Below, one piece after another: positions 1,890-53,500 of a stretch of DNA of 64,000 nt. Numbering within the stretch: position 1 is the stretch's first letter; each line of letters begins with the position of its first letter. The stretch is from a bacterium (GTDB taxonomy: Bacteria; Patescibacteriota; Gracilibacteria; Peribacterales; Peribacteraceae). Where the stretch lies: the NCBI GenBank assembly GCA_029558515.1, contig JAKQEM010000041.1, positions 1 through 64,000 of the forward strand, in the 5' to 3' direction. A program made the position numbers and the translations under genes. Under the pieces are notes generated by a model. It was not told the DNA's origin, did not search any database, and saw only the letters and a list, made by a program, of their open reading frames with translations.

Positions 1890-3506
1890 TTATTGGGCAT
1901 CCACCGCCTCCTTACACTTCTCCCAACGGGGATCATCCTCGGTATCCTGCAGAAATTCACCGTTGGTGTAGGGGAAACATGCGTCGGCGAAGGCGGTTTT
2001 CAGAACACGATCGAGGACCAAGTTGCACGGACGATGGATGCAGGTCCGGCGGAGAAAGGAAGCGTAGCGGAGGACGAACGCACGAAGACCGTCCTGATCT
2101 CGCGCCAGGCGCGCAATGCGGCCGACGGAATCCTGCAGCGGAGCAAGCGCTTCGTGCACCTCGCGCTGCGGATCGACCGTGCGTACGAAGAGCGGCGACT
2201 CCCGGGTGCTCTGCAATCTGCTGACGGAGCGGAGAAAATCACGCAAGGACTGGCGAATGGCGGTGAGAAAACCTGTCTTCTCCTCCTCTTCCCGTTGCGA
2301 CTTCACCGCTTCGTTGCCCGGACCGAATTCCGCGGACGTCTTCAGATCATCCTTGAACGTGCGGGAGACTTCTTGCGCAGCGCGCTCGCCGAGGAACTCA
2401 TTGAGAATGGCGAACTGATCTTTTTCCAGCGAAAACGGTCCGCGCAACGCATGCGTCGGCGGAAGACCCCGGGTGTTCTCCATGCAGAGCCCCGCTCCTT
2501 CGCAATCGGTGTCATCCAGACAACGACGTATGCGATTCTCCGCGCAGACACCCTCGGGGAACGCGCATGATTCGGCGCCGGCGGCCGTGCACTCGTCATC
2601 CGTCATACAGCGCACGCTGTGATCCCCTCTGCACACGCCGCCGTTCCATCCGCATCCGAACGCGTTCAGGTGCACGCGCTCCGACGGAGGCGGCGGGAGG
2701 GGAGACTCGCGTCCGAAGACGGCATCGATCTCCTGCTGGATGGTCAAAAATTCCCGGGCCGCGTCCCGATACGCGTCCACCTGTTCCTCGATGATGCGCT
2801 GCGCCTCCCACTCGGAACGCAGCGACCCCAAAAGCGGCGCGAACGTCGTGAACGGTTCCATCGTCTCGGCGTCGCACCCAAAACCGACGGGGAAGGCCGG
2901 CGCATAATCGGCATCATACGGACAGAGCGGCTCCGCCGGAGCGGAGGATGATGCGCTGGCCGCACTGAGGGCGACGGGGGAATCAAAATCATCGTACTGG
3001 TGCCAGGTCACATCTTCATAGAGCGGATCGGAGGCGCCGGTCGCCAGATGGAACGTGCGCTCATTGAGAAATGTCAGAAGCCTTTGGAGCACCAGGATCC
3101 CCGAGATCGATCCGCGCTCGAACTGTCGCTCCATGGCGGTACGCACTTCGTCCATGGCGCACTCCAGCAGAAGCAGATCTGTATGCAGGCAGGCGGTGTG
3201 CTGCGTCAATCCCTGCTGCCGGAGCGTCAGGCGCAGATCGGCCTCCAGGAGACTCTCCCACGCCGACTGGATGCTGAGCGCCCAATCCGGCAGGTACATG
3301 CCAAAATCCTGCTGGGTCTGCATGGTATCCGCCAGGGCGATGCCGTTTTGCGCGCGGAGAAGCACTTCCTGGGTGTAGTGCGTCGAAACGGGGACAATCA
3401 GTCCCAATTCCCAGTTCTCGTACAGCTGTGCGCACTCCGTCTGCGCGAATGCCGCCGTGGGAAGGAGCAAGACCAGTGCCGATGCGAGCGAGAGACGCAT
3501 CATCAT
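1890..3506 (-). CDS. Exported Cys-rich protein, operon gene 5 (unknown function)
   Basis: 538-residue protein starting with three Met codons and a clear signal peptide (hydrophobic core followed by TAAFAQ, cleavage probably before TEC). The mature chain is acidic and mostly soluble-looking. It carries a Cys-rich block at about residues 285-342 with spaced motifs such as CRGDHSVRCMTDDEC and CLDDTDCEGAGLC, which look like small disulfide-rich modules. The start overlaps the stop of the upstream gene by four bases (ATGA), so translation is probably coupled. This is the last gene of a five-gene set in which every product has an export signal. I do not recognise a family and give no function. Confidence 0.85.
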   Translation of the reverse strand: MMMRLSLASALVLLLPTAAFAQTECAQLYENWELGLIVPVSTHYTQEVLLRAQNGIALADTMQTQQDFGMYLPDWALSIQSAWESLLEADLRLTLRQQGLTQHTACLHTDLLLLECAMDEVRTAMERQFERGSISGILVLQRLLTFLNERTFHLATGASDPLYEDVTWHQYDDFDSPVALSAASASSSAPAEPLCPYDADYAPAFPVGFGCDAETMEPFTTFAPLLGSLRSEWEAQRIIEEQVDAYRDAAREFLTIQQEIDAVFGRESPLPPPPSERVHLNAFGCGWNGGVCRGDHSVRCMTDDECTAAGAESCAFPEGVCAENRIRRCLDDTDCEGAGLCMENTRGLPPTHALRGPFSLEKDQFAILNEFLGERAAQEVSRTFKDDLKTSAEFGPGNEAVKSQREEEEKTGFLTAIRQSLRDFLRSVSRLQSTRESPLFVRTVDPQREVHEALAPLQDSVGRIARLARDQDGLRAFVLRYASFLRRTCIHRPCNLVLDRVLKTAFADACFPYTNGEFLQDTEDDPRWEKCKEAVDAQ

Positions 3507-6382
3507 GGACGGACGGGAGCGGGAAGACCTGGACTGATGGGGCACATCTGCGTGGGGAAACTGATCGTCGTCATGTCCGCAAGCAGGTCCGCGGCGGTGC
3601 GCAGAAGCAGCGCGAACGATCGGCTCGATTCCTCCAGGTAACGGGCATAGAGCGCCGTGCCCGCCCGCGCGCCCAATGCGGGCGACAGGGAGAGAAGATC
3701 CGTGTCCGTCTCCTGCTGTTCCTTGGTCTGCTGCAAGAGTCCCCAGGCCGCCTCCCATCCGATGCCTTGCTCGAAGCTGAGCCGCCGCTGCGCGGAAAGC
3801 GCGCAGAGAATGGGAGGAGTGCGAGGCGGCATGCCCTGTGCCTGGCAGAGAGCGGTTTCCATGGTGCGCAGGAGCAGCTCCGGCCGGTAGGAGGGGAAGC
3901 GCGTGAGGGTGAGAGGAGGTTGCATCAGAAGCGCACCGAGCGGCGTACCCGTGAACGGATCGTCCCAGGGCGCGACGGAATCCGCCACGACGGAGGGCGT
4001 GCGTCCGGGAAGCACGCGGTGACGTTCCAGCGATTGTTCGACGCACTGACCGATGAAGCAGAGGTGGCTGCCGATGCGGCTGTCGTAGCGACTCACGCTC
4101 TCCGGGTCGCAGACAGCGGTACCGGCATCGATCGCTTCGGCAAATCCCGCCGCGCGCGGATCGGTGATCGTTGTCTTCCCATCCACCCGTGTCACCAGAC
4201 TGCTGCACGTCGCAGGCACTTGTGCGGGATTATCCGCCAGATGAAACATCTTCTGCACAAAAGCCTCCGGATACGCACGCGAGAGATAACACCCCTTCCC
4301 TCCCTCTCGCTGCCTGCAGGTGCTGTCCGTCCATACCTCCGCGCACGTTTCGGCGTTGAGAGGAATACCGTCCATGCTGCCGCCCGCCGCTGCAAACACA
4401 CCGTCGCGCTCCATCAGATCGCACTGCGCGCGGTACGCGGTCCCCTCATGCTCGCAGCAGAGGACATCATTGGACTCTCGGATCGCCGCCGCAACTTCCG
4501 ATGACGCTCCCGCGGGAATCTCCCGGTACACCGTCGTGCCGGGAGGCAGGCCGCAGTAGTACTGCGCGTGGACCAATTCGTGGTACAGCAAGTACGTGTT
4601 GTTGATGTCGGGTGACTGCTCCATCAAACAAATATTCACCGTTCCGTCCGCTCCTTTGCCGTACGTGATGGCACTGTTATTCGCAGGAACGGAACACCCG
4701 GGCGCACATTGAATGTTCAACTGACACGTATGCTGCACGGCATCCGAAGAGGAAGCCTCCGGATGGAGGTACGGTATCTCCCGGCACACATCCGCTCCCG
4801 CCGCCGTAAAACGACTCTCATCCGCCGGCATCACGCACCCATTCGCCCTGCATCCCGTCGCATCGACGGAAGGACTGCCACCCTGCAGCGAACACTCCGT
4901 GGAATTGATCGTGCGCTTGCACTGCGCGCCCTCACCCGGCACGCAGCACCACATGGGATTGACGGGGGGTTCGGGACAACCGTTGGCTACGCATCCCGCG
5001 GGAGAGCCCGACGGTGAACCGCCCGCTTGCGTACAGGACACCGCCGAAGCCGCATATCTGCAACGATTCTCGTCCCGCATGCAACACCACTCGCCCTCCG
5101 GGGCACCGGACTGCTCGTCTTTGCACCACACCAAACTGATGGTATGGGGCGGGAGATCAGCCGGAGCCGGACAGCGTTCGGTGGCATCGGGCGGATCAAT
5201 GGGGCGACAGAGGTACCCGCGCATCCCCGCGGGACTCGTGCAGAGACCGTCGCCGTCCACGGGCAGAGAAGGAGCCGTGGAGCCGCTCATGGCGTTCTTC
5301 ACGGGTGCGGGCGGATAGGTGCCGCCGAGGATGGGCTGCTCTCCGTGCGTCAGAGAGGGCAGCACGGGTTCCAGCGGAACGTGCCACTGCAGACCGACGT
5401 CTCCCATTGGATGGATGCTGTCCGCGTCGATCCGCGCCCACAGGAGGATGTTGCCGGGAAGGAGATTCTGCAGCTCCTCCGGAAAAACGAGCAGCGCGGT
5501 TTCCCCGGATCGTAACGGAGGCGTGAAGAACCGGGGATCCGCCGCCGCCGCCAGCATCTCCTGCCAAACGGCGAGGAGCTTGCCCTCCAGATCGGGATCG
5601 TCGTCCCACCGATGAAAGAGGAACTGACGCTCGGTGCCGGGACCGCTATCGGAAAGCGTGTACGTATGAGGCGCCGGAAAACGCGGTGCGCGCTCATTGC
5701 GCACCAGCCGCACGCCGTACTGGTAACGCCACACGGCGGCCACCCGTTCCTCCCCATCCAACGTGGTAAGTGCGGAACCGACGTCACCGAGGAGTTGCCG
5801 GTACAGGGCAGGATTTGCCTTGATGCGCGGCGCGAGGGACGTCACCCGCACCATCGTTCCGCTCTGACTGGTGGCGACCGCTCCGCCCCCGGCTCCCCAT
5901 ATGTTCAGGATGCCTCGCAAATCCGCGGCTACCTGCGCGGAGCGACCGGGCAGATCGGAAATCGGCAATTCGTACCCGGAGGCTTCCGCCTGCAACAGAC
6001 GACCGAGCTTGCGCACCCGCATCTCATCGGAGGCGAGGCGCCGGACCCTCTCGACGATCGTCAGACAATCCAGCCGATTGGCGGGTCCCTCATGCCCTTC
6101 CAGCCGTCCGCAGACATCGGTCCATTCATCACGCAGGATAGCGGAGATATCGGCTTCCTTGGGCACGCGTCGCTCGACATCGGCGGGAGCAATGCCCTCC
6201 GACAATAACTGCTTCCGGAAGATCGCACGAATGTACGCCGTCACTTCCGGATCGAGACCGGGAACGGAAATCTCCCGCTCCACGATCGTCTTCATCTGAT
6301 CGTATAAGAGTCCGCCCGATCCCGCGGAGGCAGCCGTGGGCAGGAGGAGCAAGCCGATGAGAACGGGGAGAATGCGACGCAT
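3503..6382 (-). CDS. Exported Cys-rich protein with HExxH motif, operon gene 4
   Basis: 959-residue protein with a signal peptide (MRRILPVLIGLLLLPTAASA). Around residue 601 it holds YHELVHAQYY, an HExxH zinc-protease-type motif, preceded by a hydrophobic stretch as in true metallopeptidases. About 85-150 residues before it (roughly 450-515) are tandem Cys-rich units sharing the pattern WCC...C...C..GGSPS...GC.ANGC. The N-terminal half has no obvious motif. It starts five bases after the preceding stop and overlaps the next gene by four bases, so it belongs to the coupled operon. A secreted or surface peptidase is an inference from one motif; the third zinc ligand was not identified. Confidence 0.85.
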   Translation of the reverse strand: MRRILPVLIGLLLLPTAASAGSGGLLYDQMKTIVEREISVPGLDPEVTAYIRAIFRKQLLSEGIAPADVERRVPKEADISAILRDEWTDVCGRLEGHEGPANRLDCLTIVERVRRLASDEMRVRKLGRLLQAEASGYELPISDLPGRSAQVAADLRGILNIWGAGGGAVATSQSGTMVRVTSLAPRIKANPALYRQLLGDVGSALTTLDGEERVAAVWRYQYGVRLVRNERAPRFPAPHTYTLSDSGPGTERQFLFHRWDDDPDLEGKLLAVWQEMLAAAADPRFFTPPLRSGETALLVFPEELQNLLPGNILLWARIDADSIHPMGDVGLQWHVPLEPVLPSLTHGEQPILGGTYPPAPVKNAMSGSTAPSLPVDGDGLCTSPAGMRGYLCRPIDPPDATERCPAPADLPPHTISLVWCKDEQSGAPEGEWCCMRDENRCRYAASAVSCTQAGGSPSGSPAGCVANGCPEPPVNPMWCCVPGEGAQCKRTINSTECSLQGGSPSVDATGCRANGCVMPADESRFTAAGADVCREIPYLHPEASSSDAVQHTCQLNIQCAPGCSVPANNSAITYGKGADGTVNICLMEQSPDINNTYLLYHELVHAQYYCGLPPGTTVYREIPAGASSEVAAAIRESNDVLCCEHEGTAYRAQCDLMERDGVFAAAGGSMDGIPLNAETCAEVWTDSTCRQREGGKGCYLSRAYPEAFVQKMFHLADNPAQVPATCSSLVTRVDGKTTITDPRAAGFAEAIDAGTAVCDPESVSRYDSRIGSHLCFIGQCVEQSLERHRVLPGRTPSVVADSVAPWDDPFTGTPLGALLMQPPLTLTRFPSYRPELLLRTMETALCQAQGMPPRTPPILCALSAQRRLSFEQGIGWEAAWGLLQQTKEQQETDTDLLSLSPALGARAGTALYARYLEESSRSFALLLRTAADLLADMTTISFPTQMCPISPGLPAPVRP

Positions 6383-6387
6383 GGAAA

Positions 6388-7104
6388 TCAATCGGCGAGA
6401 TCGCGAAGGGAGCCGCGTGCGTCCCAGCTTCGCGGCAGACAGGCGGTGGCTTCGGCGGCCAGACCGAGCACGTTGCGCAGATCCAAGGACGTGCGTTTCA
6501 GGCATTCGGTGCCGTAGGAGAGCGGCCGCAGACGGTCGAAGCCCGAGACGATGAGCAGCGTGCGTTCCAACGCGGGTTTCGCCACGGTGAGTTCGCGCGT
6601 AATCAGCGTATTCTCCGCCTCGAGCCGCACGCTGCGCGCTCCGACATCGGCACCGGACAACGACTTGGACCAGCGTACATCCTTCCATTCATTGAAGGAG
6701 CACTCGTAGATCCGCAAAAATTCCAGCAGCACCGTCGTCAGTTCCGATTCGCTGAGAGAATCCGCGCGGGACTTCCACGCCGGCAGCGAACGAGCAAGCT
6801 CGCGCAATTCTTCGGTTGCTTCCTCCACCCGGATGGTCTCCGAAGCGGTGCACTGCAGCGGCACCTCCGCGATGCCACCCATCTGACGCAGATGCGCGTC
6901 CACCGCCTGCGCGACGGTACGATGGTACATCTCGGGCCACGCGGAAAGCGGCAGAGATGCAAACGGGGAACCGACTGCGGTGCACGCAGCCAGGTGCGCG
7001 GACTGATCGGCCTCTCGCCGACCCTCTCCCGCGCACGAGGCGAGCAGCAGGCACAGCAGTGCCAATGTCATCGGCGAGCCGACGGAGCGGGAGCGGTCAC
7101 TCAT
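6388..7104 (-). CDS. Predicted lipoprotein, operon gene 3 (unknown function)
   Basis: 238-residue protein. The start MSDRSRS at 7104 gives a short basic leader followed by TLALLCLLLASC, a lipobox (LLAS before Cys), so the mature protein is probably a lipid-anchored extracytoplasmic protein. The rest is helical, with heptad-like Leu spacing and few Cys. It overlaps the end of the upstream gene by eight bases and is followed five bases later by the HExxH gene. It may anchor the operon's other products to the membrane, but this is inferred only from context. No family recognised. Confidence 0.8.
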   Translation of the reverse strand: MSDRSRSVGSPMTLALLCLLLASCAGEGRREADQSAHLAACTAVGSPFASLPLSAWPEMYHRTVAQAVDAHLRQMGGIAEVPLQCTASETIRVEEATEELRELARSLPAWKSRADSLSESELTTVLLEFLRIYECSFNEWKDVRWSKSLSGADVGARSVRLEAENTLITRELTVAKPALERTLLIVSGFDRLRPLSYGTECLKRTSLDLRNVLGLAAEATACLPRSWDARGSLRDLAD

Positions 7105-7915
7105 CACACTGAGAGAGGAAGCAGGGGAGATGATCGAGCGATCCGAGCATGCGGAGCGCCTGCCACAGAGGCTGCAGGAGCGGCAGACGTACGTCGGCGA
7201 GGAACCCCTCGAAGCCGCCGCCAAACTGCAACACGGACCGGTAAGCGCCGTCATACGCGATGAGCAGGTGCAGGAGTCGTCCTTCACGCTCCATGATGGA
7301 ATCCACCGTACCCGCGCACGTTCCAAACCCGATATCGTTGAGATCCCGCGGCGTGCAACTTACAAGCGGTGCAGCGGTCACGGGCAGACATCCCTCCACT
7401 TGCACCGTGATCGTCGCGGGCGATTCGGGAGACTCGGGAGACTCGGGAGACTCGGGTGACTCGCGCACGCGACTCAGTTCACACACGGATCGCAGCCTGC
7501 ACTGCAGTGCCCGCAACGACTGCAGTATCGGCGGGAGCAGATCGGACGTGGGTGTGCGCCGCTGTTCGAGCAATCCCCGCCGGGGCGGCACGTCCGCACG
7601 TTCATCCATCAATGCATCTCCCCACGTCGTCTCTGCAAATCCTTCAGCCAGCGATCGCCAGGAGCCGGTACCTGTTTTCATCCAGAGACGAAAATCGGTA
7701 TCCGTGCGCGTACTGCCGATGGGGAGATCCGCGGATGCCTTCTGCCCGAAGAGGACGCTGCGGTACAGCCGCTGCTCCCGGTCCATCAGACGGTAGACGT
7801 CTCCGGTGCACGACCGGTTGAGCGTGTCTTGCGCGGATGCGGAAGGAGAAAGAACCATCTGCGATAGCACGACAACGATGCAGAGGAAGCCGGTGCGGAC
7901 GACGGCAATGTTCAC
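7097..7915 (-). CDS. Exported protein with SPE repeats, operon gene 2
   Basis: 272-residue protein with an N-terminal hydrophobic signal ending SPSASAQ. The start codon is GTG at 7915 and overlaps the upstream TGA by four bases (GTGA), again suggesting translational coupling. In the middle is a low-complexity SPESPESPESPESP linker made by a perfect 9-nt DNA repeat. It separates two halves that both contain a Cys and a similar phrase (CTGDVYRLMDREQRLYRSVL early, CAGTVDSIMEREGRLLHLLI late). The protein therefore looks like an internally duplicated module, two copies of a C-T/G-x-V-x-x-(L/I)-M-(D/E)-R-E helix. No known family recognised. Confidence 0.82.
   Translation of the reverse strand: MNIAVVRTGFLCIVVVLSQMVLSPSASAQDTLNRSCTGDVYRLMDREQRLYRSVLFGQKASADLPIGSTRTDTDFRLWMKTGTGSWRSLAEGFAETTWGDALMDERADVPPRRGLLEQRRTPTSDLLPPILQSLRALQCRLRSVCELSRVRESPESPESPESPESPATITVQVEGCLPVTAAPLVSCTPRDLNDIGFGTCAGTVDSIMEREGRLLHLLIAYDGAYRSVLQFGGGFEGFLADVRLPLLQPLWQALRMLGSLDHLPCFLSQCDE
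7422..7466. repeat. 9-nt tandem repeat encoding the SPE linker
   Basis: Five units of gactcggga (first and last degenerate) inside operon gene 2. The unit length is a multiple of three, so copy-number change keeps the frame. Confidence 0.85.
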
Positions 7916-10900
7916 GGGGAGGTCGGAGCGGAAGAGGGAACGGAGGACGGCGGAGTCAGATCGATGGGACGGGGCACGTCGTAGACGGGGAGGATCTCCT
8001 CCAGGGGGAATGCCGTGCGCGGGAATGCCCCCGGCTGCCGCGTACCGATGGGCTGAGGAAGCGTTGCATCACGTACGGCCTTCCGCATCTGCTCCGCACC
8101 GTCCTCCCACTCTGCCGGCCCCAGAATCTCCCAACGGAGTCGCGGGGCGTCCGCCTCGGGATGGAGCGGAGGACAGACATCGTTCTCCGGCGGGCAGGGA
8201 ACGAACACCTGTTCCGAGCCGATGGAACGGTAGTCCTCCTGCAACTGCACATCGGGGCGGGACGCGATGCGCGTGATGCGCTCGATGAGATCCATCTCGA
8301 CGTGCTGACAGAGCGCGTCATCCCAATCGGCGCACTGCAGATGATTCTTGCGCCACAGATGACTGCCCTCCACGTCGACCTGCGCATCACGTTCCTCCGG
8401 ACGCAGCGGCCCAATACTCTCCCAGAACAAGCGCGTTCTCTCATCCATGCCCGTCACGAGGGCCCCCATCCGGTCGATGCTTGCGAGCAGTGGATCGAGC
8501 TGCGGACCCAGGGCCGGCGGAAAATCGGGGGCCGGCGGCACCGGCGCGTTTGCGGCGGAGGGAGGATCGGGCAGGGCGGCGGCGGCCAATCGCACCGCAT
8601 CGAGAATGGGCTGTATGGGAGGCAGCTGCGGAAGGGGATCCGTGAGTCCATGCGGCTTCGTGATCGCGGGAGGTGCGGGCAAATCGGTGATGCGGATCTG
8701 GACGGGCTTGAGGACGGGGAGACGGAGAGACCCCGTGGAGAAGGAGAGGACGGAGAGATCGACGATGAGATCTTCCGGTCGCGGCACCGTCAGAGAGGGG
8801 AGCACGAGAGAGTAATCTTCCACCGTATTGCGCACGCTGCCGTCCTGCGCACGCGAAGACATCCATGTATCCAGCAGCGAGTAGATGGGCAACGTGAAGC
8901 GTTGGTTCATGCACCACGGTCGATTGCTGACGGATTGATAACGCTCCATGGTCTCCTGCACGGGACGCCAGCGCTCCTTCACCGCATCGGCGATGCTGCG
9001 CTGTTCGGCCAGAATGGCGCGGTAGGCATCGACGTGTGCACGCACCCACTCCTGCAACGGACGCGTCAACCCGCTCTGGAGCGCAAGGAGCTCGCCGGCA
9101 TAGCGAGCCAGTTCGCCACGAAGCATCCGCACATCCTCGATGCGATCGGCGTAGGAAAACAGCGTCTCGCGCAGCGCCCGCACTTCGGCCGGCGCATCCT
9201 CGCAATTGCGTCTCCCCTCCCCCTGTCGCATCCACCACAGACACCAAGCCTCGGCCACGGCCCGAAACTCCACGGGAGACCCCAGCGGCACCACCACGGG
9301 TACCGGCTCCTCCTGCACGCGCAGAATGAGCGATCGCTCCAACGCCCGGAGCGCCGTTCCCAACGTATCCTCATCGGCATCGATCTGCACTTCGATGCGC
9401 TCTCCGCGTCGATCAACGATGTCGGCGGCGACCGTGGCCGCCGGCGAGAGGAGCGGATCGAAGGGGTCTGCGCCCAGCGCCCAGCCGGCCGGGAGAAGCA
9501 GGCGGATGACCGGACGATGCAGCAATGCGCTCACCTCCGCCTGCTGCTTCTGCCACCACGTCACGATGGTCCGCTCCACGGCGGTATCGTCGAAGGAACG
9601 GATCAGTCGGCTCTGTGCCAGCGGACGGGCACTGTCGAGTTGAGGGGGCGTTGTCTGCACCGCCTGATCGGGTGTCTGCAGGTACGCAGCCGAAAGGTCC
9701 CCGTCGTAATCGCGATGAAACACTTTTTCACTGAGCAGTGAAAATCCCGCTCCCAAGTTCAGATACCACAGATCCGTCTCCGCGTCGTAGGATGTATCGC
9801 GCGGCGGGGGGAGCGAATCGGGCAGATTGGATCCCTCGCCGTAACTGCCCTTGCCCTTCTGCGTCTCGCGCCTGTCGGCGACATCGATGTCGAGCACGCA
9901 GCGTCGATCTCTGCCGTGCGTCTGCCGTTTCTTGGGATCGAATTCATCGTAGAAACCATAGCAGGCGACGGGGATGGCCTCTTCCGCGGCTTGATCGTCC
10001 GCCGCCTGCGGCACGGGGTCACGAAAAAACGAGGCGACGTACCGACGGAAATAGGAAAAGTAGGGGCGGGGGGCGACGGGTCGCATATCGCGCTCTTGCG
10101 GAGCCGGCGTGGAAGTGGCGCATCCGGGATCTCCCGCCTTGCCGCATCGGCATTCGCTTCCGACGCACGCACGCGCGTTGGGTCCGCCCGTCAAATCACC
10201 CGGCATGCAGCTGCCCCCCTCGCGCACCGGCACGTCGGTGCACAGATAACGCATTCCCATTCCTCCTTCCGCACAGGTAAAGATCACATTTCCATCTGCA
10301 TCCACAACAGGATCTCCCGCCGCATCCCGTATGACATCGAAAGCCAGACAATCCTCATACTGCCACTTGTTCAAGTACTCGCACATCGAAGCGCATGTCG
10401 GCGGCGAGAGGTCCGGCCGATCCCCGAATGTCATCGTCCCATCGGGAGCGACGTTCACCGTTTGTTCGGTGAAATCCTGAGACGCAAACGGAGCATCGGG
10501 AGGCAGGGGAATCGGCGGATCCCCCGCGGCAAGCCGCCACCGGCAGAGAGGGTCCCAGAAGTAGGGGTGTCCGAATTCCTTCACAACGTACTGGTGCGAA
10601 GGTTCATCCCATACATATTTGGGAATGCTGGAGAATCCTTGATCGCACGTCGTCACAAACCCCGTCGTCGCATCGGGAAACTGATAGTCCTCACTGCGCA
10701 CCGCCATACCCGAGAGCAGTGCGCCGTCCCAATCGCCGCTGCGCCCCGGCACCCCCGTCACGGTGGCGATTTTCCCTTCCACGGATTGACTGAGATCCCA
10801 TCCGCCGCACTGCGATGCTTCCAGATAGGAGGGGATCTCCTGCGTCGTCTGCCGACGCACCACAGCAAAATCCGCAGGCGTTTGATTCTCGATGACGTAC

Positions 10901-10974
10901 GGCGCGCGCGCGGTGGCGATCGAAAGCGGCAGCATCAAGCCGACGGTCGGGAGCAGAAAGCGAACGCAACGCAT
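7912..10974 (-). CDS. Large exported protein, operon gene 1 (unknown function)
   Basis: 1020-residue protein with a signal peptide (MRCVRFLLPTVGLMLPLSIATARA). The N-terminal third carries scattered Cys pairs, including a block ending CVGSECRCGKAGDPGC. The middle is helical and charged. A Pro-rich stretch (many PP and PxP steps, roughly residues 790-840) precedes a C-terminal third with further Cys. The chain ends in a Ser/Pro/Thr tail without a membrane anchor. The Met at 10974 is chosen because it starts a textbook signal sequence; the longer in-frame extension is not signal-like. It is the first gene of the five-gene operon, and its stop overlaps the GTG of the next gene. No family recognised. 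Confidence 0.85.
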   Translation of the reverse strand: MRCVRFLLPTVGLMLPLSIATARAPYVIENQTPADFAVVRRQTTQEIPSYLEASQCGGWDLSQSVEGKIATVTGVPGRSGDWDGALLSGMAVRSEDYQFPDATTGFVTTCDQGFSSIPKYVWDEPSHQYVVKEFGHPYFWDPLCRWRLAAGDPPIPLPPDAPFASQDFTEQTVNVAPDGTMTFGDRPDLSPPTCASMCEYLNKWQYEDCLAFDVIRDAAGDPVVDADGNVIFTCAEGGMGMRYLCTDVPVREGGSCMPGDLTGGPNARACVGSECRCGKAGDPGCATSTPAPQERDMRPVAPRPYFSYFRRYVASFFRDPVPQAADDQAAEEAIPVACYGFYDEFDPKKRQTHGRDRRCVLDIDVADRRETQKGKGSYGEGSNLPDSLPPPRDTSYDAETDLWYLNLGAGFSLLSEKVFHRDYDGDLSAAYLQTPDQAVQTTPPQLDSARPLAQSRLIRSFDDTAVERTIVTWWQKQQAEVSALLHRPVIRLLLPAGWALGADPFDPLLSPAATVAADIVDRRGERIEVQIDADEDTLGTALRALERSLILRVQEEPVPVVVPLGSPVEFRAVAEAWCLWWMRQGEGRRNCEDAPAEVRALRETLFSYADRIEDVRMLRGELARYAGELLALQSGLTRPLQEWVRAHVDAYRAILAEQRSIADAVKERWRPVQETMERYQSVSNRPWCMNQRFTLPIYSLLDTWMSSRAQDGSVRNTVEDYSLVLPSLTVPRPEDLIVDLSVLSFSTGSLRLPVLKPVQIRITDLPAPPAITKPHGLTDPLPQLPPIQPILDAVRLAAAALPDPPSAANAPVPPAPDFPPALGPQLDPLLASIDRMGALVTGMDERTRLFWESIGPLRPEERDAQVDVEGSHLWRKNHLQCADWDDALCQHVEMDLIERITRIASRPDVQLQEDYRSIGSEQVFVPCPPENDVCPPLHPEADAPRLRWEILGPAEWEDGAEQMRKAVRDATLPQPIGTRQPGAFPRTAFPLEEILPVYDVPRPIDLTPPSSVPSSAPTSP

Positions 10975-11130
10975 GCGCGGCAAGTATAGGCGAAGCAGAA
11001 AGAACGTGTGTGCCGCGAATGCGCACCGCACACCGACCGCGTAATTTATCAATGCGATTTTCTGCATAACTCATGTGACATGGGTAGTCTCACGCTCCTT
11101 CAGTGACGAGTCCTGAGTGAGAAGTTTCCA

Positions 11131-11188
11131 GTTATGAGTTATGAGTTATGAGTTATGAGTTCCCAATCCCGAAGTCCCAATCCCGAAT
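11131..11188. repeat. heptamer arrays upstream of ssb
   Basis: Four perfect gttatga units (11131-11158) followed from 11161 by a second word set (tcccaat, cccgaag, tcccaat, cccgaat). They fill the divergent space between the secreted-protein operon and ssb. Confidence 0.85.
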
Positions 11189-11227
11189 CCCTATCCTTCG
11201 TCCCTAATTTCTACCCTCCTCTCCCAT

Positions 11228-35975: not shown

Positions 35976-36992
35976 TTATCTTGTTTGCTTAATAACTTCT
36001 GCAGCAATTCCACCTGCACATTTAGAAATGGATTCAGCAACTTTTTCAATTGCCGAAAGACCAGGTGGCGAATCTTTGTGGCTTTTGCTGTCAAGTGTAA
36101 TCGAAGGGTTATAACCGACCATTTTTACAAGTTCTTCCATAAGCTGTTCTTTTATTTGTCGAGACTTGTCTGACTCATCAAGTTTTTCAACCTGAGCACG
36201 ATACCCTTCAAATGATTTTGCCATAGTTCCTTTATGTATGTATTCCTGCTGCAATCTCTTATTTTGACTATCTTTTCTGCTGGCAAAAAGTGCAATCCAA
36301 ACAAGTGGAATGAAAAAAGTCATTTTGGTAAGCAACGCAATTAATTCCTTGCCTAAATCTTCTTCAGCTTCAAAAGCAATAAAGGACCAAAATGCAACTA
36401 CAAGCATTGCTAAGATCGAAATACCAAACAAAGTAATCCACCAACCACTTTTATATTTTCCAGACTGATCTACATATGCTTTTGCAAGGCCAACAGTAGT
36501 TGCCCCCGGAAGCAACTCTGTATTTATCTTATCTGATAACTGATTGAATTTTTCTTTTTGCCCTTGCAAGTATGATTCTATCTCTTCAAGTAAGCCCGGC
36601 TCTTTTATCGTCTCTCCTGTTTTCTCATCTACTTTTTTTACACCAAAATATTTATCTTCAAATTTACCAGCTAATTTACTTATCTCTTTGAATGACTCAA
36701 CTAATTCTTCTAACTCGGTTTTAATTGAATCAGCCTGATCAGTATCTACACAAATTTCATCATATGCCTTCTGAATTTCTTCTTGCTGTATTTTTGCATC
36801 AGCAACCAGCTCTACAATTTGGTCTTTTAAGCCTCCTTTATCTTCTATCAAATCTCGTGAACTTTGTGCTTCACCAAGTAACTTTAATATTGACTCTTGG
36901 ACAGAGTGTATTTTGTTGATTCCCTGTATCGTCTTTTCAATCAGCTCTACTAGTTGCCCCCTCTTCATTCTTTTAATTGTTATTTCACTCAT
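35976..36992 (-). CDS. Coiled-coil membrane protein paired with a type IIG-like methylase
   Basis: 338 residues. The N-terminal about 180 residues are charged and predicted coiled coil (for example IVELVADAKIQQEEIQKAYD). Two transmembrane helices follow (WWITLFGISILAMLVVAFWSF and LLTKMTFFIPLVWIALFAS), then a C-terminal helical region. No catalytic motif is seen. The start MSEITIK is 16 bases after the stop of the methylase gene, so they form an operon. The gene is strongly AT-rich, unlike housekeeping genes here. A membrane partner or effector for the restriction system is an inference from position only. Confidence 0.8.
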   Translation of the reverse strand: MSEITIKRMKRGQLVELIEKTIQGINKIHSVQESILKLLGEAQSSRDLIEDKGGLKDQIVELVADAKIQQEEIQKAYDEICVDTDQADSIKTELEELVESFKEISKLAGKFEDKYFGVKKVDEKTGETIKEPGLLEEIESYLQGQKEKFNQLSDKINTELLPGATTVGLAKAYVDQSGKYKSGWWITLFGISILAMLVVAFWSFIAFEAEEDLGKELIALLTKMTFFIPLVWIALFASRKDSQNKRLQQEYIHKGTMAKSFEGYRAQVEKLDESDKSRQIKEQLMEELVKMVGYNPSITLDSKSHKDSPPGLSAIEKVAESISKCAGGIAAEVIKQTR

Positions 36993-37008
36993 AGTAGTAA
37001 TTAGGGAA

Positions 37009-40000
37009 TTATGAAAAGAGTTTTGTAACAGTCTCATCCACCTCCTTCTCCAACTTCTTTATCTCCTCTTCGTTGCCCTCGCTCGCCGCCAACTTGTGCA
37101 GTTCCTTCGATAACGTACTCAATTTCTCATGCAGCGTGTTCTTCGGATCAAACTTCGGAATGCCGACGTGCTGCATGACGGACGGAGTTCCGAATCCTCG
37201 TCCAGCGGACGAGAAAGACTTAATAAAATCACGAACCGATGTTGAATTCAGAATCGCACAAATGAAATGAGCCTCATCCTCATTGTCTGACGGAATTAAT
37301 GAAGTTGTGTGTGTTGATAAAACATTCCTATAACCAAATGTTGTTTTCTCTTGTGAAACCACGGCTGCTACAACATCACTTGCCATTCCTTTCCAAAGAA
37401 CCTTGTATTTTGCCATTGTATACGGACCTACCCCTAATACTGCGTAGAATGCACTTCTATTAGCCAATGCTTTTACAGCCTTTGAGGCTTGAACATCAAA
37501 AGCAGGTTTTAGTTTCGCCAGATACTCATACGTTCGGGGATACTCTTCTTTTAGAAATACTTCCGGTAGCGGCTCCCTTTTTTCATGATCTTGCACAAAC
37601 AAAAGATAAATACCCGATTTTGCATTCCACCTTTCAATATCTTTTCCTCTAATCGCCGGGAATAGTCGATCATTCTCCACAACCATCTCAACTTTTTGCA
37701 CCTTTGTTTTTCCTGCTTCGTTCAAGTTTTCAATGAGCGCATCGTTATTCGAGAGAACCTGCTTAACCTTAACCCAAAAAACACCGTACGGCACCGCACG
37801 TATGCCCAGAAAGGCTTTATATTTGTTGTTGCCCTTGATTCTCGTAACCGACTCATTCCCTTTCTCTGTTGTTTGCCAAGATGCAACTGATGTACCCATC
37901 GGATTCGCTTCCAGTTTCTTCTTGTTCATCATCTTCAGCGCATCTTCGTACGGCGTATCCGTCGGAATTCTTCCCACCCCTTTCTTCCTCGTCCAGACTG
38001 TATACGGCACCGGATACGTCGTCTCCTCACTGCGCTTGAGAAAAATGGCCGCCGTCTTATTCGCCGCGCCTTCGAAGGGCTGCACCGTGACGAGATCATG
38101 TGCCTGCCAGACGCGGAACTTCTCGGTCTGCCCAAGGCAAAACCTCCGGAAACCCTCGCCCGCGCCTTTGGATTTGAAGAGTTCCTGCGTAATGAGGAAC
38201 CCGAGTTTGCCGCCCTTGCGGACAAAACGGTCAAATGCCGCATACGTGAAGAGCATGGAGAAATCCTTCTCGCCGCCGCCCAGACGCGCCGCATGTCCTT
38301 TGAGTGAGAAAAGACCGTAGTTCTTCCAGAGTTCCAGCGTCGCCTGACGGTACTCGTCGGCAAGATATCCCCATCGAATCCACGGCGGATTGCCGATGAC
38401 GTAATCGAATTTACCCGCATTGGCGGGAGCGAAGACGTTTTTGAGGAACCGCGCCCAGATGCCGTTTTTACCTTCTTTCTCCAGTATCAAAAGTTGCTCG
38501 TAAAAATCCCGAACCGTCTGTTGTGACCCCGGGAGTACCAACCCTTTACTTTCCAGAATTTTCAACGCAATTTCCGTTTCTTCCTCACGCGCTACCAGCG
38601 TTTCCACTTCCTCCGCCGCCTGCTGCATCTGCAAACCCTTGTTAGCCAGCCAATGAGCGGGAATGAAAAATTCCGTGACAGATGTCTTCATGGGATAGTA
38701 GTCTCCGAAGAGTCCGGCGCTCACCTTCTTCTCCGTCGGCGAGAGGACGGAATCCGCCAAGTACACCGGAATCTCAAAATTCCTCTGTTCATGGATCAGA
38801 TCGCCAAGGGCGAAAATGTAGTTGGTGCGCGAGGCGATGACGGCAAGCGGATTCAAATCAAAGCCCCAGATGTTCTGTCCGATCGTCTTCGCGATCTCCT
38901 GCTTCGGTGCCTTGTGCTCCTTTGCCCATTCTTTCGCCCGCTGGATGGCGAGCACGAGGAACGTGCCGGAGCCGCACGAAGGATCGAGCATGCGGTCATC
39001 CAGCTTGCCCTTGTATCCCGTCTCATTCATGACGAGTTCTGCAAGCCAGTCCGGCGTGTAGTACTCGCCGAGCTTGTGTCGAATAAGTTGAGGTACGAGA
39101 TACTGATAGAGTTTCTTAAGAAGATCGCGCGCGGTCTTCGGATGGATGGTCGTCGTCGCCGGTTCGAAATCGCTCAGTTCCCGCGCCACTTCGCGCAGCG
39201 CCTCCTTGAGCGACGGCGACCAAGAGTCGAGATACCAACGGAAGAAATCCCCCTCAAGAAAGTTGGTAATGCCCCTATTCGCGAAGACGCCGCCGTTTTC
39301 TATGTCCTCAAGTTGCCGCTTCAGTTCGTCATCATCCGCATGTGCCAGCTTGGACGAAAACGACTCGCTGAGCGATGACTCCTCGTCGCGCATGGCGAGA
39401 ATTTCGATCGCGATCAGCTTCATCAGATACGCGAAGTACGTATGAACGCAGAAGAGCAATTTTTGGAACTCCGTTTTCTTCTTCACGCCGTATTTCTCCA
39501 TGAGCACCTGTGCTTCTTCATCCTGCGCCGCCGCAAATTGCTCGCCATAGACAATCCCAAAAAGCCTCTTCCACTCATTGAAGAACACTTCCGACCGCTT
39601 GCTTCCCCAATTGTCCAGCGCATCCACGAGCGCGGACACGATTTTCGAAGCCAGAGGACTGTCGGGGCCGAAGGATTCTGTGAGAGTTTCCGGAATGAGT
39701 GGCTTGCGCGAGAGGCCGCGCAGATGCATAAGGAATGTCCGCGCGCTCTCGACGTCGAACGGATACGGACCATGCCGCACGAATTCCTGTGTTTGCGCAC
39801 CGTCGCTGAATTCCACGAAGAATATCTCCTCGCCGTCGAAACCCACGCCAACGGGTCTCTCGAAGAGCGTCTTTGCATCGGCTCCCTGCACGTATCCTTC
39901 AGCCTTCAGGTACCCGTGCAACTGTTCTTCCGCGTGTTCGACGACTCCTTTTTTGCGGAAGGAGGCGGGCGGCTCGTATTCGATGATCACCTTTCCGTGA

Positions 40001-40212
40001 ATGGCGTCAGGCCGACCGCGATACTCGGATGCGGTCTTTCCCGTATGTCTCTCATAGCGCGATCCCCTGATGCCGATTGCTTCTAAAACGGGAGACAGAT
40101 GAATCTCAAATTTGAGACGGAGATCTTCTTCCGTTTTCGCTTCCCTCATGATTTCCCCGGCACTGCGAACGAGTGCGTGTACAAAGCCGCTGGATTGGTC
40201 GGCATTCTTCAT
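37009..40212 (-). CDS. Type IIG-like restriction-modification protein (N6-adenine methylase)
   Basis: 1067 residues. The N-terminal part has RGRPDAIHGKVIIEYEPP (about residues 65-82), which resembles a PD-(D/E)xK nuclease core but has a non-standard last position. A methyltransferase core follows: GEYYTPDWLAELV, motif I MLDPSCGSGTFLVLAI, motif IV YVIGNPPWIRWG. The rest is a target-recognition region of the TaqI/Eco57I type. Residues about 750-994 are encoded by visibly AT-rich DNA while the flanks are GC-rich, suggesting replacement of the specificity domain. ATG at 40212 is chosen; a TACAAT -10-like box lies about nine bases upstream, so the mRNA may be nearly leaderless. Confidence 0.88.
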   Translation of the reverse strand: MKNADQSSGFVHALVRSAGEIMREAKTEEDLRLKFEIHLSPVLEAIGIRGSRYERHTGKTASEYRGRPDAIHGKVIIEYEPPASFRKKGVVEHAEEQLHGYLKAEGYVQGADAKTLFERPVGVGFDGEEIFFVEFSDGAQTQEFVRHGPYPFDVESARTFLMHLRGLSRKPLIPETLTESFGPDSPLASKIVSALVDALDNWGSKRSEVFFNEWKRLFGIVYGEQFAAAQDEEAQVLMEKYGVKKKTEFQKLLFCVHTYFAYLMKLIAIEILAMRDEESSLSESFSSKLAHADDDELKRQLEDIENGGVFANRGITNFLEGDFFRWYLDSWSPSLKEALREVARELSDFEPATTTIHPKTARDLLKKLYQYLVPQLIRHKLGEYYTPDWLAELVMNETGYKGKLDDRMLDPSCGSGTFLVLAIQRAKEWAKEHKAPKQEIAKTIGQNIWGFDLNPLAVIASRTNYIFALGDLIHEQRNFEIPVYLADSVLSPTEKKVSAGLFGDYYPMKTSVTEFFIPAHWLANKGLQMQQAAEEVETLVAREEETEIALKILESKGLVLPGSQQTVRDFYEQLLILEKEGKNGIWARFLKNVFAPANAGKFDYVIGNPPWIRWGYLADEYRQATLELWKNYGLFSLKGHAARLGGGEKDFSMLFTYAAFDRFVRKGGKLGFLITQELFKSKGAGEGFRRFCLGQTEKFRVWQAHDLVTVQPFEGAANKTAAIFLKRSEETTYPVPYTVWTRKKGVGRIPTDTPYEDALKMMNKKKLEANPMGTSVASWQTTEKGNESVTRIKGNNKYKAFLGIRAVPYGVFWVKVKQVLSNNDALIENLNEAGKTKVQKVEMVVENDRLFPAIRGKDIERWNAKSGIYLLFVQDHEKREPLPEVFLKEEYPRTYEYLAKLKPAFDVQASKAVKALANRSAFYAVLGVGPYTMAKYKVLWKGMASDVVAAVVSQEKTTFGYRNVLSTHTTSLIPSDNEDEAHFICAILNSTSVRDFIKSFSSAGRGFGTPSVMQHVGIPKFDPKNTLHEKLSTLSKELHKLAASEGNEEEIKKLEKEVDETVTKLFS

Positions 40213-40258
40213 TTTTCGACATTGTACAGCTTTTGCATGCGCGTACCATATCCTTTGC

Positions 40259-41767
40259 ATGCCCTTTATCACAGCCTCCAAACTCTACGATTACATCCAG
40301 TGTCCGCACCGCGTCTGGCGGGATCTCAACGGTCCGCAGGAGGAAAAGAATCCGGAATCCAATTCTTTCGTCGAACTGCTGTGGGAAAAAGGAGTGAAAC
40401 ACGAAGAGAAGATTGTGGCGCATCTTGGAGAATATCTCGATCTCAGCGAAGGAACGCACGAAGAGCGTTTCTCACGGACGGTCCAGGCGATGAAAACCAA
40501 AACGCCACTGATCTATCAGGGCGTACTCATCCATGAAAATATGCTCGGGATTCCCGATCTTCTGAAAAAGTTGCCCGATGATACGTACATGCCGATCGAC
40601 ATCAAATCCGGCATGGGATTCGAAGGTGCCGACGAGGAGGAAGGAGAGGAAGGCAAACCGAAGAAACACTACGCGGTGCAGCTCTGCCTGTATAACGACC
40701 TGCTCAAGCGACTCGGATTCTGTTCGCACAGTAGCGGGCAAGTCATCGATATTCACGGTAAGACAGTGGAATATGATCTGACAGCTCTCATGGGTCCGCG
40801 GTCGAAGAAGACGTGGTGGGAGTATTACGAAGAAGTGAAGAAACATGTTGATTTTCTCCTCAAAGATCAACACAGAAACAAGCCGGCTTCGGCGGGTATT
40901 TGTAAGCTCTGCCCATGGTACAACTCCTGCAAAAAGTGGTGTGAAGAAACGAAAGACCTTACAAGCGTCTTTTACCTCGGCAGAAGCAATCGCGACAGAA
41001 TCAATGAAGACCTCTTGATCGAAAACCTTGATGAATTCATCGGGTTGGATGTTGCAGGAGTCATGAAACAGAAAGAGGAGGAAAAGAGAGCGGGCAATAC
41101 GGAATTCCTGTACCGAATCGGGGAAGACAGCCTTGCCAAAGCGCTCCGTCGCGCAATCATCCTCCACCAAACAAAAAAGCCCGTCGCATACGGAACCATG
41201 GATTTCCCGCAGGTAAGCCATGAGCTCTTCTTCGATATCGAGGACGATCCAACGCAGGATTTCGTGTATCTGCACGGCGTGTATGAGCGCGCCGGAAAAA
41301 ACGAACGTTTCGTACACTTCACGGCTACGGAACTTTCTGAAGAAGAAGAAAAGCGTGTGTGGCAGGAATTCTGGAGTTACATTTCATCGCTCCCACAGGA
41401 TGATTTCGCCGTTTACTACTACTCTCATCACGAAGAGACAACATACAAGAGGCTGCAGAAACGGTATTCCGATGTCATCAGTGCCGAAGCAGTAGAACAG
41501 TTCTTCGATCATCCGCATGTGGTCGATCTCTACGATACGGTGCAGAAGAAAACCGACTGGCCGATTGGGAGCTACTCCCTAAAAGCTCTCGCGACGTATT
41601 TAGGCTTCTCGTGGAGAGATGAAACTCCATCGGGTGCGCTGTCCATTCAGTGGTTCAATACGTATCTCGAATCAAAAGATGATGCGATTTTAAAGAGGCT
41701 CCTTGAATACAACGAAGATGACTGCAAAGCGACGATGGTGCTCAAAGACGCATTGGAAAGATTATAA
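40259..41767 (+). CDS. RecB-family nuclease (TM0106-like, RNase H-fold C-terminus)
   Basis: 502 residues. It starts MPFITASKLYDYIQCPHRVWRD, the usual opening of TM0106-family RecB-like nucleases. The N-terminal nuclease part has GIPDLLKK and MPIDIKSGMGF (catalytic Asp and D-x-K), then a Cys cluster CKLCPWYNSCKKWC that could bind an Fe-S cluster as in Cas4/AddB-type nucleases. The C-terminal half has a ribonuclease H-like domain with FFDIEDDP, AVYYYSHHEE and LLEYNEDDCKAT acidic motifs. It is divergent from the methylase gene with 46 bases between. Defence or DNA repair are both possible. Confidence 0.88.
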   Translation: MPFITASKLYDYIQCPHRVWRDLNGPQEEKNPESNSFVELLWEKGVKHEEKIVAHLGEYLDLSEGTHEERFSRTVQAMKTKTPLIYQGVLIHENMLGIPDLLKKLPDDTYMPIDIKSGMGFEGADEEEGEEGKPKKHYAVQLCLYNDLLKRLGFCSHSSGQVIDIHGKTVEYDLTALMGPRSKKTWWEYYEEVKKHVDFLLKDQHRNKPASAGICKLCPWYNSCKKWCEETKDLTSVFYLGRSNRDRINEDLLIENLDEFIGLDVAGVMKQKEEEKRAGNTEFLYRIGEDSLAKALRRAIILHQTKKPVAYGTMDFPQVSHELFFDIEDDPTQDFVYLHGVYERAGKNERFVHFTATELSEEEEKRVWQEFWSYISSLPQDDFAVYYYSHHEETTYKRLQKRYSDVISAEAVEQFFDHPHVVDLYDTVQKKTDWPIGSYSLKALATYLGFSWRDETPSGALSIQWFNTYLESKDDAILKRLLEYNEDDCKATMVLKDALERL

Positions 41768-50523: not shown

Positions 50524-53500
50524 TCAGAGCGCACTCGCCGTGATCGTGACCGTCGTTTGATAGGTGCCGCTCGGCTGGATCTTCAGCGCACCGATTTCGA
50601 CGCGCAGGGAGAGCTGCTCCGTTGATCCGCTCGGGTCGGTGGCGCTGTCACGACTCACGACTACGGTCGATCCCGTGCCGACATTGAGCCACTTTTCGTC
50701 CGTCGAATCGGTTCCCCACTTGGCGTCCGTATCGGTACTCGCCGAGCGCAGACGACCGCCCCACGCCGATGCGGTCTCAGCGACGGACCACGTCTCGGGC
50801 ACGTCGGCAGTTGTCGGCCGGTACGGCGGAATCGTGTGTTCCAACGGATCGATGAGTGAGCCGGTCGCGGTACCGCCGCTGCCAGAGAGCACTTGCCAAT
50901 TCAAGCTGTATCCCGTTGGATTCGTGGTGCTGACCGTACAGAGGAAGGTCGTGTCCGCCGTGCCGCTGAAGAGGATGCTCCCGATGGCGGCTTGCAGCGC
51001 GCAGCTCAGAGAGACTTCGGAGGATACAGACTCTTCTTGCCGGTAGCCCGCGTCCAATACGTAGGTATCGGATGTGCTCGGGCCGATGATCGGTTCGCCG
51101 AGCGTGTCGGCCAGGAGGTAGTTGCTCGAGAGTGCCGCCTCCCCGCCGCCGGCAGCGATCACATCCGGTGACAATTGATGTGTGGTGCTCAACAGCGGTT
51201 GCCATTCTCCCTGGCCGGCCGTGCCGGACAAACCCGTTATCACCCAATCTTCTCCCTCAACGGACACAGTAATACCCTCCGTGCTGACCCCCTCGGCCGT
51301 TTCAATGATTTCCCCTTCTTCGTTCGCCAGGAAACTCCAATCGTCTTCGTCCGTACATCCGATGGTCGCCTTGCCGTTGCATATGCGCAGCGCATTGTGC
51401 TCAGCACTCTTGGGGACTGCAAGGCTATAGGGGACGGTGATGCCGGCATGCACGGTTGCGCCGTGGAATACGGAGGAGAACAGAGAGGTGTCACGCAGGA
51501 TCGTGAGTGTGCTGAAATCCAGTTCCCCTGTGTCAAAATCAAAGGATACGTCCGCCACTCTTCCCGATAGATACAGCAGGCGAACCGTTTGCACTCCCAC
51601 CTGTCGCACCTGCGTCACGTCGACGGAGATATTGTTTGCCAGCACCGCATCGTGATCGTTCGAAGGGAGTGCACTGATGTCATGTCCCGCGTAGATCACA
51701 ATCGCGCTTCCGTCGGCGATGTTCGTGGCGGGGAGCGTCGTCGTCGTCTGTTCGTTGCCCACCGTATCCAGGGCGCTCTGATTGGTAATGGAGCTCACCG
51801 TGAGATCCGCGGACTCATTTCCGGCTTGCACAACGTACGTGCCGCTCAATGTCGTGCCCTGTCTGGTGGAAAGAACGACGCTTTCTCCCGTATCCAGCAT
51901 GACGGTGAGCACGGAGCTCTCCGACAGTGTTTCATCGTAGGTTGCGATGATTTCGATGGTCGCCCCGGAGCTGTACGTGCCATCCGCTGTTCCCGAGGAA
52001 AATGACAGAAGATCCGGATCATCCGTATCCACGGTCAGCGTCACGGTGTTGCTCGCAGCGCTCTCGATATCCACTGCACTCGTTTCCTTGGCGTGCAAAA
52101 CGTACGTTTGATCCGTCAGTGTGGAGGTGGTGCAACTCCAGGCGAAGTCGGGGCCGGCGCCCACCGTGGTGAGGCAGAGCACGGTCGCGCCGCTGTACGC
52201 TTTCAGCACATTGGCTGCTTCCGATCCGGTTCCCGTGAGGATCGGGGTCGCGGAACCCGTGGAAGAACCTGTGACGGGAGAGAGGATGGTGGGGGGAGTG
52301 GGGGGAGTGGCGGCGAACAACCAATTCGTCGTATTCCCGTTGTCGACGCAATCTTCGGAGTCGGTGAGGCACACGAGCTCTTGCCCCCCGCTTGCGTCAC
52401 TGTCTTGCACATCCAAGTACTTGAGGAACTCTTGCGTCCCACTGTCTCCGTCCACTAACAGATTCGACGCACTTCCCGTTTTTGTGCTTCTCACGCTCAG
52501 CAATCCCCCCTCGACTCCCATCAGATTCAACGCTCCTGAGAACGACTGTCGCGCAGAGTGATCGAAGAACAGGGTCGTGGCCGCCGTCACCATTTTTGTG
52601 AAACTACCGAAGATCGTGCTGCCCGACACGGTCTGTGCCACGCCGTCCGCGGCATCCAGCGTCACGGTTCCGCCTCTCGCAGTAAATTCTCCTTGATTCA
52701 CCCAGTTTCCCGCGACGGTAATGCCGTAATTACCGCTCGAGACATCGAGCGTGGCATCATAGAGCCGGAGGCTGCCGTTGATGTCCAGCGCGCTCCCGAG
52801 GACATACATGCCGCTCCCTGTCACCGGTGCTCCGCTGGCGAGTGATGCCACTTCCGAAGCGGAAAGTGCCCTGTTATAGATGCGGACGTCGTCGAGGAGA
52901 CCGTCCAGATAATTGTATGACGTCTGATCATTTTGATTATTTTGGTATCGGCCAATATTCAGATTCTTTGTCGTTTCCGGGAAATTGGACGACGAGTATG
53001 TCTGCGGGGTCTCCCCGATGCCGTTTTTGAAGAATGAAATGGCGGTTTTGTCATAGGTGACAGCAACATGCGTCCATTCTCCCAGCGCGACGGTTGCCGA
53101 AGAGTATAAGCAGTGCCATCCGCTCAAATATGTGCAGAATCCTATTTGGTTTGAAGCATTGGTCCCAACCTCATAACGCAAATCATTGGTGTACGGTTCT
53201 CCTTTGCCCAAAAAATCACCATTTATTTCTTGCAGATTGATCCAGAGGCTCCACGTTGCGGGAACAGTTTTCCCGACATTGACAGTGGCTGCATGCGGAA
53301 CGTCCACATAATCATCCACTCCATCGAACTCCAGCCCTCCTGCGTTGAAACTTCGGAGGGCAGGCGCACCGGCAACCCAGCCCGTAGAGGTCTGCACACC
53401 CGTGTAGTTGGTGAGCGTTCCGTTGTTCCCATTCCCCGAATCATCCCGCGCGACCGTGCTCCCCGATCCGTCATCAAACTTCCAGTAGCCGACGAGGCCG

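Follow-up and report, generated by a model that had tools for sequence, protein, structure and literature searches.

The window, by which we mean the whole 64-kb stretch of DNA analysed here, comes from a member of the Patescibacteria/CPR, a group of tiny, mostly uncultured groundwater bacteria. Five open reading frames, P1 to P5, lie end to end on its minus strand between positions 10974 and 1890 in the order P1-P2-P3-P4-P5, and their lengths and tight packing are as an earlier note on this DNA had described them. These genes and the features discussed below are:

10974-7912, minus strand: P1, 1020 aa, with a signal peptide and 23 cysteines; first gene of the cassette
8206-9615, minus strand: P1 core (residues ~454-923), common to giant SLH proteins and holding an 88-residue helix and a Pro-rich stretch
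7915-7097, minus strand: P2, 272 aa, with a GTG start and a signal peptide
7104-6388, minus strand: P3, 238 aa, a probable lipoprotein
7033-7044, minus strand: lipobox LASC of P3, residues 21-24 (Cys24), read from the sequence
6382-3503, minus strand: P4, 959 aa, with a signal peptide and 37 cysteines
4830-5090, minus strand: two tandem Cys-rich repeats in P4 (WCC...C...C...GG...GC..NGC), at alignment columns 701-820
4568-4582, minus strand: HELVH, a zincin-like sequence motif at P4 residue 601, within a variable insert
3506-1890, minus strand: P5, 538 aa, with a signal peptide
2469-2669, minus strand: Cys-rich block of P5 (CxxDxxC...C type), seen in the alignment and absent from most homologs

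The four junctions consist, from P1 to P5, of an overlap of 4 bases, an overlap of 8, a gap of 5 and a second overlap of 4. A hydrophobic N-terminal export signal can be recognised in the sequences of all five products, and the earlier note was right that each bears a signal peptide or, in P3, a lipobox. Cysteine makes up 2.3-3.9% of the five proteins vs 0.2-1.7% of the products of adjoining cytosolic genes. The note had also proposed that they share Cys-rich blocks; the raised cysteine content is indeed common to all, but the blocks of P4 and P5 are unlike, and profile comparison detects no homology among the five families beyond their signal peptides. The five genes are therefore rejected as mutual paralogs. 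As the note had stated, none of the products belongs to a recognised family, nor did our searches place each gene in a separate known one: Pfam gave no family at E<=1 for any of the window's P1-P5, NCBIfam nothing above cut-off, and a PDB sequence search with all five family profiles no credible match. Moreover, when all members of the deep P1-P5 alignments were scanned with Pfam, no family was common to more than two members of any one alignment. Promoter and terminator signals did not rise above the level found in shuffled sequence. Short tandem repeats (AGTTATG plus a 14-mer) occupy positions 11130-11196, where the cassette is separated from the divergent ssb gene.

The arrangement is strongly conserved within Peribacteraceae. 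The window's genome belongs with Candidatus Peribacteraceae: a genus-level alignment of P1 matches records that bear this name, Candidatus Peribacter or Peregrinibacteria. A search with P4 found matches in 21 of 40 genomes, including the window's own, all of them in one family. The P2 profile matched 62 of the ~74 genomes of the family (family and class ranks being throughout those assigned by the genome search resource). In 55 of 62 family loci retrieved the genes P1-P2-P3-P4-P5 follow one another in the same order and on the same strand, while the remaining seven are cut off by the edge of the contig or of the fetched region; with the order so widely kept and all exceptions edge-cut, the arrangement is not due to chance. 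The order of the genes, whose conservation among CPR relatives the note had put forward as a check, is thus decisively upheld. The modal junction in the family loci is again a 4-base overlap, although our choice of start codons favoured those near the upstream stop that carry a signal, so that the counts of overlaps and of signal peptides are partly built in, though this choice barely separates a spacing of -4 from nearby ones. This commonest junction supports the proposed translational coupling; the fixed stoichiometry proposed along with it is not supported, as gene overlaps cannot show it. All five genes are under purifying selection: when two species of one genus are compared, every one of them gives a dN/dS of 0.06-0.09, and in another genus P2-P5 give 0.22-0.50. 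Family alignments of all five proteins contain invariant cysteine columns.

In most relatives within the family the neighbourhood reads gltX-murB-ssb(divergent)-cassette-dnaE-tsaC-nrdR-aspS, where the genes downstream of the cassette are named from their sequences rather than by family search. The window has gltX-murB-ssb next to the cassette, followed on the other side by L28 in place of the usual genes, with aspS ~20 kb away. Two further regions of the window deserve mention in their own right. A low-GC island at 35976-40281 (~0.40 at 36-38 kb vs ~0.58) encodes a 1090-aa restriction-modification methylase of the Eco57I type, together with a partner of 353 aa to which Pfam assigns no family. 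At 50524-56670 lies the gene for a probable lipoprotein of 2048 aa that bears a Laminin_G_3 (concanavalin-like lectin) domain; the gene after it, on that strand too, encodes a 516-aa protein weakly similar to mannosyltransferase.

Twelve of the ~74 family genomes gave no match to the P2 profile. In two of them, G001 and G017, P4 and P5 are retained where a contig ends, and a third, G005, has no recognisable cassette; because the last genome is 100% complete, the cassette cannot be strictly essential. G005 does encode a P4-like protein on its own (L084:9229-12459, contig C17), 1,076 aa long and containing 66 cysteines, but the rest of the cassette was not found in that genome.

Weak P2 matches outside the family lay in the same gene arrangement. 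A P2 profile built from several families found the gene in 143 of 353 genomes, 97 of 208 genera and 18 families of the class, and in none of ~340 sampled genomes of the phylum outside the class. In fourteen further loci from seven families (f4, f15, f16, f28, f30, f32 and f34), P2 and P3 always come after a large opening gene; the P4 and P5 positions follow in thirteen of these loci, and in the remaining one the contig ends before them. Together with f9, f11 and f29, the five-position architecture is found in ten other families, f11 having the only locus in which P2 has no giant gene beside it. The mapped loci display a single order and no insertion over at least 11 families. Profile comparisons across families support the identity of most positions. 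For instance, hhalign gives a probability of 99.2% for P1 against the giants (E 3.3e-19, 396 columns, P1 residues ~454-923), for which direct HMM matches reach 3.5e-11, 98.3% for P2, 96.9% for P3 and 94.7% for P5 (82.9% once signal peptides are removed), while mismatched protein pairs used as a control stay at or below 11%. For the P4 slot a value of 78% fell to 0.4% without the signal peptides, and homology between families at this slot is consequently not supported; in other families P4 would have been either replaced or changed beyond recognition. The profiles point to homology of four of the five positions across families, with less certainty for P5. We conclude that the cassette, the identity of P4 excepted, is a real, old and class-wide operon.

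The nature of the first gene offers the best clue to function. In most of the other families it encodes a giant that includes the P1 core and reaches ~4,250 aa, the length of one frame with both ends closed. SLH domains, which bind wall polymer in other bacteria, occur in 16 of 23 giants (8/9 in one set and 8/14 in another, several of these proteins being cut by locus ends) and FG-GAP in 20 of 23 (6/9 and 14/14), and some giants also possess Big, Invasin_D3, TIG, TSP3 and DUF11 modules. SLH domains are themselves common in these bacteria, being found in all 40 relatives searched and 25 times in the window's genome. In one relative they also occur within an open frame 7,295 aa long (G007:C21:28389-30323). 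The P1 of the window has no Pfam match, SLH is absent from all 46 family homologs scanned, and Peribacteraceae P1 contains no SLH, FG-GAP or Ig module. Whether through loss or from the outset, this lineage lacks the wall-anchor and adhesin modules, and it has kept the core. For want of these modules, the surface role of Peribacteraceae P1 is carried over from its orthologs. An AlphaFold2 model of P1, for which 53 complete homologs were available, has a mean pLDDT of 74.9 and a pTM of 0.68, with a beta-rich N-terminal half and the long helix at residues 596-683. Neither the PDB nor viral structures provided a fold match to it at E<=0.001, and the P4 model (mean pLDDT 75.1, pTM 0.58) likewise has no PDB fold match at this threshold; as medium-confidence multi-domain models may miss such matches, these results weakly suggest that P1 and P4 could represent new folds.

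The small partners show their own pattern of constraint. The family alignment of P2 has 11 invariant columns, eight of which are cysteines. A nine-base tandem repeat at 7417-7463 of the window, within P2, codes for an SPE repeat. Homologs of P3 were found in ten other families. A simple lipobox pattern is matched by 10 of 59 P3 homologs, and most of them carry instead an N-terminal hydrophobic segment resembling a membrane anchor. The lipobox behind the probable lipid anchor of the earlier note is thus present in the P3 of the window and a minority of its relatives, but is not general.

Taken together, we think it probable that the five genes form one vertically inherited operon for a secreted, disulphide-rich, envelope-anchored complex built around the P1 core. 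Under this model P1 would be a large scaffold, whose FG-GAP and, usually, SLH domains (with Big or thrombospondin type 3 in some) would in the giants anchor it to the wall and reach outward, and which in Peribacteraceae would have been cut down to ~1,000 aa around the common core. P2, P3 and P5 would be made in step with P1 by coupled translation, exported, cross-linked by internal disulphides that stabilise the complex, and assembled on the P1 core. The membrane tether would be P3, through its lipobox or N-terminal segment, and sometimes P5, through a pilin-type membrane domain, while P4 may be a Cys-rich partner specific to each clade. Physical assembly, the disulphides, membrane tethering and the contact role are inferred. 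The probable job of such a complex would be surface architecture together with contact with other cells or surfaces. A surface role is likely, and the idea of a dedicated extracellular system is supported in the form of an extracellular or envelope system; contact with a host or partner cell, also proposed earlier, is plausible by analogy with the P1 orthologs and their SLH and adhesin modules.

One alternative is that P2, P3 and P5 serve as chaperones or a scaffold for the secretion, folding or mounting of giant P1, and perhaps of other SLH proteins. Their constant place behind the giant gene and the coupling of their translation would fit such helpers, as would their size, far below that of P1, the lack of adhesin modules in most of them and the predicted membrane anchoring of P3. 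However, all three are themselves exported and evolve at about the rate of P1, and no chaperone-like family or fold was found among them, so that we regard a helper function as unlikely.

We rate as similarly improbable the suggestion that the five are exported Cys-rich parts, comparable to mating-pair proteins, of a contact or DNA-transfer apparatus of the type IV secretion (T4SS) kind, with its pilin and ATPases encoded elsewhere in the genome. The suggestion comes from P5: in two species of genus g3 its C-terminal tail resembles T4SS_pilin (PF18895), the one scanned being above the Pfam cut-off. Moreover, the window's genome has 11 T4SS_pilin matches and, at C44:70151-71080, a VirB4/TraG-type ATPase gene ~5 kb from three of the pilin genes. 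However, T4SS_pilin domains occur in 40 of 40 relatives, some of the proteins that carry them being very large (3,635 aa in the longest open frame), so that they may anchor proteins to the membrane quite generally. In the window's genome the cassette shares no contig with the pilins or the VirB4-like gene, inspection of family loci revealed no T4SS gene within or next to it, and apart from the g3 tail no member of P1-P5 matches a T4SS subunit or a Tra/Trb family in Pfam. Hence the likeness to PF18895 and to F-type mating-pair proteins is confined to the fusion in one genus and to export and cysteine content, and with pilins everywhere in these genomes and none linked to the cassette, we lowered the standing of a T4SS component.

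That the five are functionally unrelated exported proteins sharing merely a promoter would agree with the lack of homology among them, but is very unlikely in view of their invariant, uninterrupted order in so many families.

In P4, conserved N-terminal (~1-420) and C-terminal (~750-950) parts flank a variable insert. Of the first 18 P4 proteins aligned, that of the window alone has the tandem Cys-rich repeats. One P4 homolog, at L083:505-8376 (G201:C16), reaches 2,623 aa with 259 cysteines and eight DUF4215 stretches within a cassette; this locus is one of the seven edge-cut ones, and its P4 was detected separately. The HExxH that the earlier note had reported is present as HELVH, and weak matches to Peptidase_M76 and to DUF6782 were obtained in two P4 homologs each (for M76, 20.4 bits in L022 vs a cut-off of 25.2). 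The window's own P4 has no match to Peptidase_M76 (PF09768), and the resemblance to that family is thus restricted to the HExxH segment, with a score below cut-off where given. Only 32 of the 59 P4 homologs contain HExxH, and versions of 600-650 aa lack the segment altogether although the rest of the operon is kept; therefore catalysis is not the common function of P4. With the motif not conserved and no catalytic family for the other four proteins, we reject the substrate-degrading role once proposed and consider it most improbable that the cassette encodes a secreted system for proteolysis or nutrient scavenging in which P4 is the metalloprotease.

The known systems closest to the complex in the form favoured here, secreted and anchored around P1, include SLH-anchored S-layer and adhesin proteins (PF00395): the P1 orthologs are large and exported and usually combine SLH with FG-GAP, some also with Big, TIG or TSP3, whereas the window's P1 has none of these modules. 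To our knowledge, no SLH system comes with such a fixed set of four genes for exported partners. Large Cys-rich extracellular proteins, for which attachment was suggested, have been described in Candidatus Peribacter riflensis (PMC4736985), where the sections consulted list some twenty proteins very rich in cysteine (7.2% Cys, mean length 1,655 aa), a cluster of 14 genes among them. They share with the cassette the lineage, export and enrichment in cysteine, but at a level well above its own, and the operon is not described in those sections. Giant exported adhesin-like proteins proposed for host recognition are also reported, in the portions consulted, from the CPR epibionts Vampirococcus lugosii (PMC8080830) and Strigamonas methylophilicida (PMC13059738), the latter with SLH surface proteins; they recall the giant P1 orthologs, but these portions mention no five-gene cassette. 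A description of the operon was not found in the main text of open-licence papers, and the earlier note's view that the families are undescribed is supported.

A further-reaching version of the proposal, which we hold only tentatively, is that the cassette encodes a surface machine that defines the class, nucleated by the P1 core and made of families and folds without known relatives, which anchors cells to partners or builds an outer coat. Little is known of the surface organisation of CPR cells or of how they attach to others, and most of their exported proteins are without annotation. The invariant five-gene cassette, traced by P2 through 18 families, provides a compact, defined group of proteins for expression, co-folding, localisation and imaging. 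Moreover, a giant adhesin-like protein that is trimmed in one family while its partners are kept suggests what the core of the complex may be.
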